A stretch of DNA of 64,000 nt from Sphingopyxis panaciterrulae. Its GTDB lineage: Bacteria > Pseudomonadota > Alphaproteobacteria > Sphingomonadales > Sphingomonadaceae. Shown here one piece after another: positions 4,057-57,480 of this stretch. The position numbers and the translations under genes are program-made. The stretch is from positions 1-64,000 of the forward strand of contig NZ_JACIJH010000003.1 of the NCBI RefSeq assembly GCF_014199295.1, written 5' to 3'. Every line of letters starts with the position of its first letter. Position 1 is the first letter of the stretch. Below the pieces are notes generated by a model, which was not told where the DNA came from, did not search any database, and saw only the letters and a list, made by a program, of their open reading frames with translations.

Positions 4057-4140
4057 CTCTGGACTGCTTCGTCGCTGCGCTCCTCGCAATGACGGAACTT
4101 CATAAAGCCTCGTCATTGCGAGCGTAGCGAAGCAATCCAG
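4057..4140. repeat. REP-like inverted pair, family A
   Basis: Two copies of the family A unit (GTCATTGCGAGCG-N-AGCGAAGC followed by AATCCAG) face each other: a degenerate copy in reverse at 4057-4093 and a clean copy at 4112-4140. The same unit recurs at 18238, 20721, 28195 and 49713. The copy at 4112-4140 also forms the left arm of the GIY-YIG cassette. Confidence 0.85.
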
Positions 4141-4484
4141 AGCGTCATTCCGCTCCGTCGATTATATCGGGCCACAGATCCCGCCAGAGCGGATTTTCCG
4201 TTTCGATAAGCTTCAGCTTCTTCGCGCGACTCCCGGCCTTGATCTGTTTCTCGCGCACGATGGCCAGTTCCATCGTCCCGTGCATCTCAAACCAGACGAG
4301 CAACCTGCAATCATAGCGTTCGGAAAATCCGCCCGCCCCTTCGCGATGCTGCCACACACGCCGCGGCAGGTTCGACGTCACGCCCGTATAGAGCGTGCCG
4401 TTCCGCTTGCTCGCCATGATATAGACCGCCGGCTGACGTTGGCGCATGACCGCCCCTGGATTGCTTCGCTACGCTCGCAATGAC
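4112..4484. mobile_element. Inverted-repeat cassette carrying a GIY-YIG gene (cassette 1)
   Basis: A perfect 29-bp inverted repeat brackets a single gene. The left arm is 4112-4140 and the right arm 4456-4484. The gene fills almost all the space: its stop is 4 bases from the left arm and its start codon 8 bases from the right arm. The arms belong to REP-like family A and share the variant base T in GCGTAGCG, which other copies in the window lack. No target-site duplication is obvious. Calling it mobile is an inference from this architecture and from the matching second cassette at 57106-57469. Confidence 0.55.
4145..4447 (-). CDS. Small GIY-YIG nuclease-domain protein
   Basis: This 100-residue single-domain protein of the YhbQ/UPF0213-like GIY-YIG group has VYI at residues 8-10, YTG at 20-22, conserved Arg and His in LPRRVWQHR, and the metal-binding Glu of REKQIK at residue 66. 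The GIY-YIG fold cleaves or nicks DNA in homing enzymes, UvrC and some repair enzymes; free-standing members of this size are poorly characterised. It is roughly half identical to the protein at 57150-57434. It lies alone between perfect inverted repeats, so it is probably not part of either neighbouring operon. Confidence 0.85.
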   Translation of the reverse strand: MRQRQPAVYIMASKRNGTLYTGVTSNLPRRVWQHREGAGGFSERYDCRLLVWFEMHGTMELAIVREKQIKAGSRAKKLKLIETENPLWRDLWPDIIDGAE

Positions 4485-4492
4485 GGGGAACC

Positions 4493-13910: not shown

Positions 13911-13983
13911 GTCGTCCCAGCGAAAGCTGGGACCGCTGGCATCCTTCTTGCCGATAGCGGCCCCAGCTTTCGCTGGGGCGACG
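13911..13983. repeat. Inverted repeat between convergent cysH and dnaB
   Basis: Two palindromic units (gtcgtcccagcgaaagctgg and its reverse near 13959-13983) lie head to head in the gap between the convergent cysH and dnaB genes. Each unit is itself a hairpin. It is a REP-like repeat and could also act as a bidirectional terminator. Confidence 0.7.
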
Positions 13984-20710: not shown

Positions 20711-20720
20711 AGCCTGAATC

Positions 20721-20795
20721 GTCATTGCGAGCGGAGCGAAGCAATCCAGAATGCGCGTAAACCGCTCTGGATTGCTTCGCTTCGCTCGCAATGAC
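20721..20795. repeat. REP-like inverted pair, family A
   Basis: Two almost perfect family A units point at each other (20721-20749 and 20767-20795) around a 17-base spacer. They lie directly after the DoxX gene. A stem of this length may also stabilise or terminate the doxX transcript. Confidence 0.88.
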
Positions 20796-20890
20796 GGGTA
20801 ATCATATCTGATCTCTCATAATCTCGCCGCTTGGCATCGCTCTCCGCCTGCGCTAGCCTCCACTTAACGTTTACGTAAAGGGAGGTTGGC

Positions 20891-49712: not shown

Positions 49713-49786
49713 GTCATTGCGAGCGAAGCGAAGCAATCCAGGGTGGCGTAAACCGTGCCGGATTGCTTCGCTTCGCTCGCAATGAC
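49713..49786. repeat. REP-like inverted pair, family A
   Basis: Two facing family A units (49713-49741 and about 49758-49786) surround a 16-base spacer after rnk. The spacer (gtggcgtaaaccgtgc) resembles that of the pair at 20721-20795 (atgcgcgtaaaccgct), so the two doublets share a common ancestor as whole units. Confidence 0.88.
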
Positions 49787-57083: not shown

Positions 57084-57105
57084 CCCCGGACGTTCTCCTC
57101 ACCTT

Positions 57106-57469
57106 GTCATTCCCGCGAACGCGGGAATCCATGACCCGAGGTGCCGTGATTGTATTACGTCTATATCATGGCCAGCCAAAAGAACGGCACGATCTATATT
57201 GGCGTAACCAACGACCTCATCCGGCGAACCTGCGAACATCGCGAGGGGCAATTTGCCGGCTTTTCCCAAAAATACCGGGTGAAGCATCTCGTCCATTACG
57301 AACAATTTCAGGATATCCGCGATGCGATACAACGCGAAAAGCGGCTCAAGAAATGGAATCGCGCGTGGAAAATCGAACTGATCGAGACGCAGAATCCCGA
57401 TTGGCGCGATCTGTGGTTCGATCTCAACCGATGACATCGACCATGGATTCCCGCGTTCGCGGGAATGAC
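57106..57469. mobile_element. Inverted-repeat cassette carrying a GIY-YIG gene (cassette 2)
   Basis: A perfect 28-bp inverted repeat (57106-57133 and 57442-57469) brackets one GIY-YIG gene. Gaps are 16 bases on the start side and 7 on the stop side. The arms are REP-like family B (centre gcgaacgc), unlike the family A arms of cassette 1. The whole unit, 364 bp, fits exactly between accD and folC, two genes that usually adjoin in one operon. That supports insertion. No target duplication is plain. Confidence 0.55.
57150..57434 (+). CDS. Small GIY-YIG nuclease-domain protein
   Basis: This 94-residue single-domain protein has VYI at residues 4-6, YIG at 16-18 in IYIGVT, R25 and H30 in LIRRTCEHREG, and the Glu of QREKRLKKW at residue 63, so the full catalytic set is present. 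The only possible full-length start is TTG at 57150, since TGA precedes it directly and GAGGTG lies 7 bases upstream. It is similar throughout to the protein at 4145-4447 (shared YIMAS, NG-T-Y, HREG, LIET, WRDLW). Composition is more A/T-rich than accD or folC. It belongs to the UPF0213-like group, role unknown. Confidence 0.85.
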   Translation: MYYVYIMASQKNGTIYIGVTNDLIRRTCEHREGQFAGFSQKYRVKHLVHYEQFQDIRDAIQREKRLKKWNRAWKIELIETQNPDWRDLWFDLNR

Positions 57470-57480
57470 GAAGCTGTATA

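Follow-up and report, generated by a model that had tools for sequence, protein, structure and literature searches.

Which enzyme, if any, serves the CGTC REPs? The question is raised by a small GIY-YIG nuclease gene that fills the space between two inverted copies of such a repeat in the window, the whole 64,000-nt stretch of Sphingopyxis panaciterrulae DNA analysed here. Passages of Di Nocera et al. 2013 (PMC3733652) define CGTC REPs in five phyla, mostly in alpha-Proteobacteria, as a superfamily with stems of 8–9 bp and loops of 4–5 nt, equate some of them with neisserial dRS3 (CGTC-1) and Rickettsia RPE-4/RPE-6, and describe them as seemingly without a dedicated transposase and not associated with transposase genes; REPs inside hypothetical proteins of <120 aa were excluded from the intragenic count. 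Passages of the same paper give the REPtron as a RAYT gene flanked by inverted REPs carrying a GTAG tag. Term searches found "GIY" neither in the text of PMC3733652 nor in the 2025 RepRanger paper, and among the papers listed by searches of open-licence PMC articles none linked GIY-YIG proteins to REPs. Stand-alone prokaryotic Slx1-like proteins are described in passages of the 2006 GIY-YIG review (PMC1564403), and the word "palindrome" does not occur there.

Cassette 1, the unit of REP arm, GIY-YIG gene and inverted REP arm, covers 375 bp (positions 4111–4485, minus strand). The left arm (4111–4140, plus strand), assigned by inverted-repeat search and recurrence count to the CGTC-tagged REP family A with its tag outward, is the 30-nt sequence CGTCATTGCGAGCGTAGCGAAGCAATCCAG (pattern CGTC...CCAG), and the right arm (4456–4485, minus strand) is its exact reverse complement. 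The exact inverted repeat that the sequence-only reading had reported around the gene is real, with arms one base longer than noted there, and the inverted-repeat search extended it to arms of 33 nt matching at 97% (4108–4140 and 4456–4488). The gene itself (4145–4447, minus strand, stop codon counted; ORF and Pfam) stands free between two other genes, its stop 4 nt from one arm and its start 8 nt from the other. It encodes a protein of 100 aa whose sole Pfam domain, GIY-YIG, scored 52.4 bits against a curated cut-off of 22.6. The inverted-repeat score of cassette 1 was 30; among 731 control windows of the same size one reached 15 and none 16, which rules out a chance inverted repeat.

Two further claims of that reading fared less well. 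For the rest of the window it had noted no copies of the REP-like family other than doublets, which does not hold, because a related third copy, an A′ variant REP of pattern GGAG...GACG (4059–4094, minus strand, from reading the sequence), lies just beyond the left arm; by eye, a REP outside the left arm, mostly of the A′ variant, is also present in the clade-A relatives inspected. It had also taken a variant base, a T common to both arms, as a sign of joint movement. None of the 21 exact A-doublets in this genome has the T, but several congeneric genomes do, and the two arms of a related cassette frequently differ in their bases, so that it is weak evidence of the arms having moved together.

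Flanking inverted repeats, which the same reading had proposed to look for beside homologues, were the rule. Our set comprised 169 distinct homologues from 183 loci and the window, 160 of them with 220 bp on both sides; genus members were chosen among the matches listed, mostly from genomes in few contigs, and the wider (named) set held the best 80 of the matches listed. A gene was called bracketed when an inverted repeat with a score of at least 15 joined its flanks, orthologues at one site being counted separately and kinship uncorrected. On this basis 135/160 homologues were bracketed against 1/731 control windows of the same size, taken at random positions of the same loci rather than around matched small genes. 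The genus gave 81/84 (controls 0/351) and the wider set 54/76 (controls 1/380), and 25/160 homologues had no matching inverted pair. Loci fetched later gave 15/22 bracketed genes and 7/22 without a matching inverted pair; one of these seven lies near a contig end, and at least three are clade-H genes, for which the automatic search placed its limits wrongly, so that they overlapped the arm (for the two G014 genes the arms were identified separately). Records titled Bradyrhizobium, Afipia, Pseudomonas, Dyella, Dechloromonas, Rhodanobacter, Bergeriella and Neisseria gonorrhoeae were among those bracketed.

We also considered all inverted repeats with 200–450 nt between their arms. A GIY-YIG gene was enclosed by 52/57 of them in 61 genus loci (1.264 Mb) and by 39/53 in 80 wider loci, all these loci having been selected for holding such a gene; 800 kb of this genome, unselected for the gene, contained only 5 repeats of that spacing and no CGTC-REP bracket among them. 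From the 52/57 and the 800-kb count, it is unlikely that REPs flank any small gene in this manner. Within fetched DNA of the same genome (median 80 kb), a further copy of the arm was found for 22/61 genes and none for 39/61 (control 0/61). Testing simply for a CGTC repeat motif in both flanks gave positives for 61/135 bracketed genes, 26/585 controls and 12/25 unbracketed genes, and is too loose to serve as a classifier. An automatic classification of arm orientation in the 135 bracketed genes (61 outward, 10 inward, 64 unsorted) was set aside, and the motif GGACGTTGC, repeated beside two cassettes, showed no excess over its reversed control. The Neisseria gonorrhoeae record (L108) has a small GIY-YIG gene with the inverted pair TTCCCGC..GCGGGAATGACG, score 18.

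Cassette 2 of the same window (57106–57469, plus strand) follows the plan of cassette 1 with a different REP family: family-B arms (57106–57133 and 57442–57469) surround a second GIY-YIG nuclease gene (57150–57434, plus strand, 94 aa, listed TTG start; ORF and Pfam), and the flanking genes, recognised by eye, are accD and folC. PF01541 has five matches in this genome, namely cassettes 1 and 2, L010, L012 and L013, the last in a 664-aa frame presumed to be UvrC. The GIY-YIG genes of L010 and L012 are also bracketed by inverted repeats, of families unlike those of cassettes 1 and 2; each of the four small genes found has a repeat family of its own, named A to D. The presumed UvrC, a negative control of a single locus, had an inverted-repeat score of 9. 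These arms recur. In a sample of 864 kb (19% of the genome: 800 kb taken regardless of the gene, plus the window), copies with up to about 12% mismatches, including those of cassettes lying inside the sample, numbered 20 for A, 13 for B (mostly head-to-head pairs), 20 and 29 for the two C arms and 9 and 6 for the two D arms; reversed-arm controls gave 0, one of them giving 1 at about 20% mismatches. The whole genome has 63 exact copies of family A and 21 exact doublets of 76–78 bp with tags outward (HH), as in CGTC REP dimers. Gene-less A doublets in the window lie at 20720–20796 (77 bp; inverted-repeat and exact doublet searches) and 49713–49786 (inverted-repeat search). Family A and B arms carry CGTC at one end and a CCA-type tail at the other; by eye, several other arm families have altered tags and a CCGTTCG class has no CGTC tag.

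The REP family follows the protein clade. Comparing arm similarity with protein identity over non-syntenic genus pairs, arms matched in 11/11 pairs at ≥80% identity (10 of these from one clade), in 5/13 at 70–80%, and in no more than about 1% of pairs under 50%. A Mantel-type test on the non-syntenic pairs (n = 3068) gave r 0.411, with 0/2000 permutations as high; the result was again 0/2000 when arms were shuffled only among genes of one genome, and the wider set alone gave r 0.419 (0/2000). In the sister clade of the cassette-1 protein (60–70% identity, seven loci), six loci carry, by eye, a sister REP of the form GGAG...GACG or its ...ATCTCCAGC variant, and the seventh a related variant.

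In the two clades tested, REP number likewise follows the gene. Exact REPs were counted in 60 congeneric genomes, kinship uncorrected. The median of exact A-REPs was 37 in the 12 clade-A carriers against 3.5 in the other 48 genomes (p 1.7e-6), with no excess of H-REPs in these carriers (p 0.73). H-REPs in turn had a median of 14.5 in the six clade-H carriers found against 2 in the others (p 0.0013), with no excess of A-REPs (p 0.68); the clade-H carriers were taken among the matches listed and the fetched loci and may be incomplete, and two subfamilies fall under the H pattern. A clade-A carrier was defined by a protein of ≥72% identity; the 12 include G022 with one stop codon and G016 with a damaged start, and G026 and G055, which have partial clade-A matches, were counted as non-carriers. 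Several genomes have many exact A-REPs and no full-length clade-A gene (G041 59, G005 41, G011 37, G056 27, G003 23 and G053 20).

Repetition of the whole unit was observed in clade H. Two cassettes of G024 (L177 and L178) are 99% identical over 416 bp and occupy different sites; their homology ends within 17 bp of the arms, the only shared sequence outside being 17 bp on the upstream side. In four genomes together, five clade-H cassettes can be aligned over 396–424 bp (78–99%), and over the 600 bp inspected to either side the alignment otherwise involves REP copies alone. G014 has two more, with proteins 88–89% identical. The H cassette has unlike ends, which can therefore be distinguished. 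When 10 of the 60 genomes were searched for exact H doublets, 7 of them yielded 12 distinct ones in total. Eight of the 12 (77–86 bp) have both unlike cassette ends, keeping 15–17 bases beyond the 5′ arm core and 10–16 within the 3′ core, and each of these stretches matches the closest of three cassettes with no more than one mismatch; the other four belong to another subfamily. Pairs of the MITE kind, short elements with both ends of a long one, are thus present in the H family. Three of the eight cassette-like doublets are in G036, together with a clade-H cassette, and no clade-H gene was found in G019, G032, G026 and G039, the hosts of the other five. The exact search gave no H doublet in the H-gene genomes G004, G052 and G014, and in G024 only one, of the other subfamily. 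Such an H doublet has the two cassette ends and lacks the gene, in either order of origin. As to L178 (G024:C1:1611112), its flanks are neighbours only in G024 among the matched genomes and carry GCGGACGT and ACGTCCGC as an inverted pair; in other genomes the two flanks are non-adjacent and no empty site was found for it. L178 may sit at a rearrangement joint.

The site of cassette 1 was compared across the genus. Of 54 loci fetched from 60 genomes (six genomes are outside the sample), 53 were readable, L212 being unread. Short spacers of 18–46 nt without a cassette were found in 14/53, six of them ≤21 nt and some of the longer ones holding a single REP-like stretch. The clade-A cassette is present in 13/53, its ORF apparently intact in ten and damaged in three (a stop in G022, truncation in G026, start lost in G016), and the other 26/53 hold remnants, other doublets or other DNA; at this position an A doublet stands in G037 and a remnant in G041. 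On the flank tree the cassette required 12 changes, 8 of them forced by well-supported branches. Its clustering was no greater than with shuffled labels (mean 11.6 changes), and the sister pairs G004/G035, G052/G054 and G048/G049 are unlike in cassette presence. Repeated loss or allele exchange fits this pattern better than fresh insertions. The sequence-only reading had set empty alleles against a fixed syntenic site: the empty alleles exist, but all clade-A cassettes found are at this one site, so that cassette 1 is presumably an old copy, retained, lost or exchanged at this position rather than newly arrived. At the accD–folC spacer (57084–57480 in the window; L214–L243), read in 30 of 59 matching genomes, 11/30 are bare (16–31 nt), 17/30 have doublets of various families (by eye) and 1/30 other DNA; the cassette is found in this genome only among the 30. 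The spacer looks like a hot spot. By eye, the spacers of relatives at both sites are too different to delimit a target-site duplication.

We then turn to the protein. Over 36 pairs among nine intact clade-A orthologues, dN/dS had a median of 0.079 and a maximum of 0.134, at a median dS of 1.5, near saturation; by this measure the clade-A gene is under strong purifying selection. The AlphaFold2 model of the 100-aa protein is a bare GIY-YIG domain (pLDDT 91, pTM 0.84). Its nearest solved structures, all four with modest scores, were Slx1 7cq3 (Z 7.0, 97 residues, 3.1 Å), UPF0213 1zg2 (Z 6.8, 74 residues, 4.2 Å), the UvrC domain 1yd6 (Z 5.9, 69 residues, 2.9 Å) and I-TevI 1ln0 (Z 5.7, 69 residues, 2.3 Å). 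Foldseek gave no match to the model below E 0.001, and the best PDB sequence match was of the UPF0213 type (1zg2, 1ywl). In 44 sequences Y9, Y20, R30 and N85 are invariant and E66 nearly so; we take the conserved Tyr, Arg and Glu (Y9, Y20, R30, E66) to be the catalytic residues. NCBIfam gave no match, and scans of defence and phage families at most weak ones, for protein 2. Slx1 acts on branched DNA, and a hairpin target would suit an Slx1-like preference of this kind. Among the matches listed, congeneric genomes have 1 to 12 PF01541 matches each.

Taken together, the architecture is general, protein clades go with REPs of their own and, in clade H, the whole unit is repeated. The cassette is probably a minimal mobile element of ~375–395 bp, in which inverted CGTC REPs with tags outward surround one gene for a GIY-YIG nuclease of ~100 residues, the partner of these REPs. 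Cleavage of the REP by the nuclease and a copying route are what we infer. The nuclease would recognise its own REP, probably as a hairpin or cruciform, and would cut at or beside it; host repair or replication would copy the cassette of 375–395 bp or the doublet of 75–86 bp, and the copy would land in another break or branched site of intergenic DNA. GIY-YIG enzymes hydrolyse DNA and are not known to form a covalent strand-transfer intermediate, so joining would be left to the host, unlike with the HUH RAYTs. Weighing against this reading are the single site of all clade-A cassettes found, the homologues without a matching inverted pair, the genomes rich in exact A-REPs but with no full-length clade-A gene, and the five cassette-like H doublets in genomes where no clade-H gene was found.

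The RAYT-like analogy drawn by the sequence-only reading is borne out wherever sequence can test it (flanking repeats, recurrence, match of clade and REP, gene-less doublets, empty sites). As in a REPtron, one gene lies between inverted REPs, gene-less doublets occur elsewhere, and the REPs are tied to their own enzyme; REP doublets of REPtron systems are the REPINs. The enzyme there is a Y1 HUH tyrosine transposase and here, according to Pfam, a GIY-YIG nuclease, and the tag is GTAG there and the CGTC that starts the arms of cassette 1 here. By its organisation the GIY-YIG cassette would thus work like a REPtron, yet it is not one. No Y1 transposase (PF01797) was found in 49/60 congeneric genomes, this genome among them, and the other 11 have one or two matches each; a RAYT as mover was rejected for want of a candidate in those 49. 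With the CGTC REPs, as passages of PMC3733652 describe them, the repeats share the CGTC tag, the CCA tail and the tags-outward dimers, but those were reported without transposase genes and here a nuclease gene lies between the repeats. Slx1-like and UPF0213 proteins (1zg2, 1ywl) are likewise minimal single domains, and are the best PDB sequence match and among the best fold matches. Passages of the 2006 review describe no repeat association for them, and have the C-terminal Asn absent from Slx1, whereas the cassette family keeps N85, a candidate counterpart. I-TevI-type homing endonucleases share the catalytic fold and selfish genetics, but in the cassette gene no second domain was found and no intron or intein was seen, and the cassette is bounded by inverted palindromes with MITE-like derivatives.

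Other accounts of the bracket have to be weighed. The GIY-YIG gene could be a homing passenger that cuts into pre-existing REP doublets while another agent spreads the REPs. It does occupy the position of a doublet's spacer, no cognate gene was found in some genomes rich in REPs or holding cassette-like doublets, and GIY-YIG enzymes are classic homing nucleases in passages of PMC1564403. This account nevertheless appears unlikely to us, given that REP number tracks the cognate gene and not that of another clade, that no Y1 transposase was found in those 49/60 genomes, and that near-identical cassettes occupy different sites in G024. Such near-identical copies in one genome also speak against a housekeeping Slx1-like nuclease that would trim or resolve REP hairpins, sit near REPs for regulation and have no role in spread, as do the clade-specific REPs, the 1 to 12 PF01541 matches per genome (among the matches listed) and the patchy occurrence at the orthologous site, with flank-tree clustering no greater than for shuffled labels. 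Slx1, a branched-DNA nuclease, is among the nearest folds and purifying selection is strong; even so we consider such a host gene improbable. It is most improbable of all that REPs simply gather at gene ends and bracket a small gene by accident, or are kept there for terminator function: REPs and gene are both small and intergenic and REP doublets are dense here, yet only 1/731 control windows (random positions, not matched small genes) was bracketed, only 5/57 inverted repeats with 200–450 nt between their arms in the genus loci surround anything other than this gene, the unselected 800 kb of this genome has no CGTC-REP bracket of that spacing, and the arm family depends on the protein clade within genomes.

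As for the mobile-element reading, no element that has palindromic ends and a GIY-YIG nuclease as its sole gene is known to us, the literature searched included. We incline, with less assurance than for the element itself, to see in it a new class of autonomous element (~375–395 bp), which would be moved by a single-domain hydrolytic GIY-YIG nuclease recognising its own palindromic ends and would be, with its gene-less derivatives, the source of CGTC REPs across Proteobacteria, neisserial dRS3 included. With CGTC REPs seen on both sides of a nuclease gene to which they are matched, the missing-transposase question, as passages of PMC3733652 pose it, becomes testable with one protein and one hairpin. 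If true, the proposal would add a mobile element whose sole gene is a hydrolytic nuclease and account for up to a dozen GIY-YIG genes per genome in the genus (among the matches listed); a GIY-YIG enzyme may be the missing spreader of a large orphan class of bacterial repeats.

Several minor observations concern other repeats. The arms CCGTTCG..CCTGAGCTTGTCGAAGG, without a CGTC tag, surround GIY-YIG genes of a more distant clade in L010 (1354–1762) and other genus loci, the L010 frame continuing through its own repeat; a separate name may be warranted for this arm class. Between 13911 and 63754 the window has some nine or ten additional inverted doublets from several REP-like families (examples at 13911, 22059, 37622, 41037, 44038, 48957, 51974, 53282 and 63650). 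Finally, five inverted repeats with arms of 33–35 nt, 202–203 nt apart and mutually unlike in arm sequence, enclose no GIY-YIG gene (61294–61326/61529–61561 in the window, L163 7045, L326 10973, L346 5563 and L349 5311), and are perhaps another small element of fixed length.
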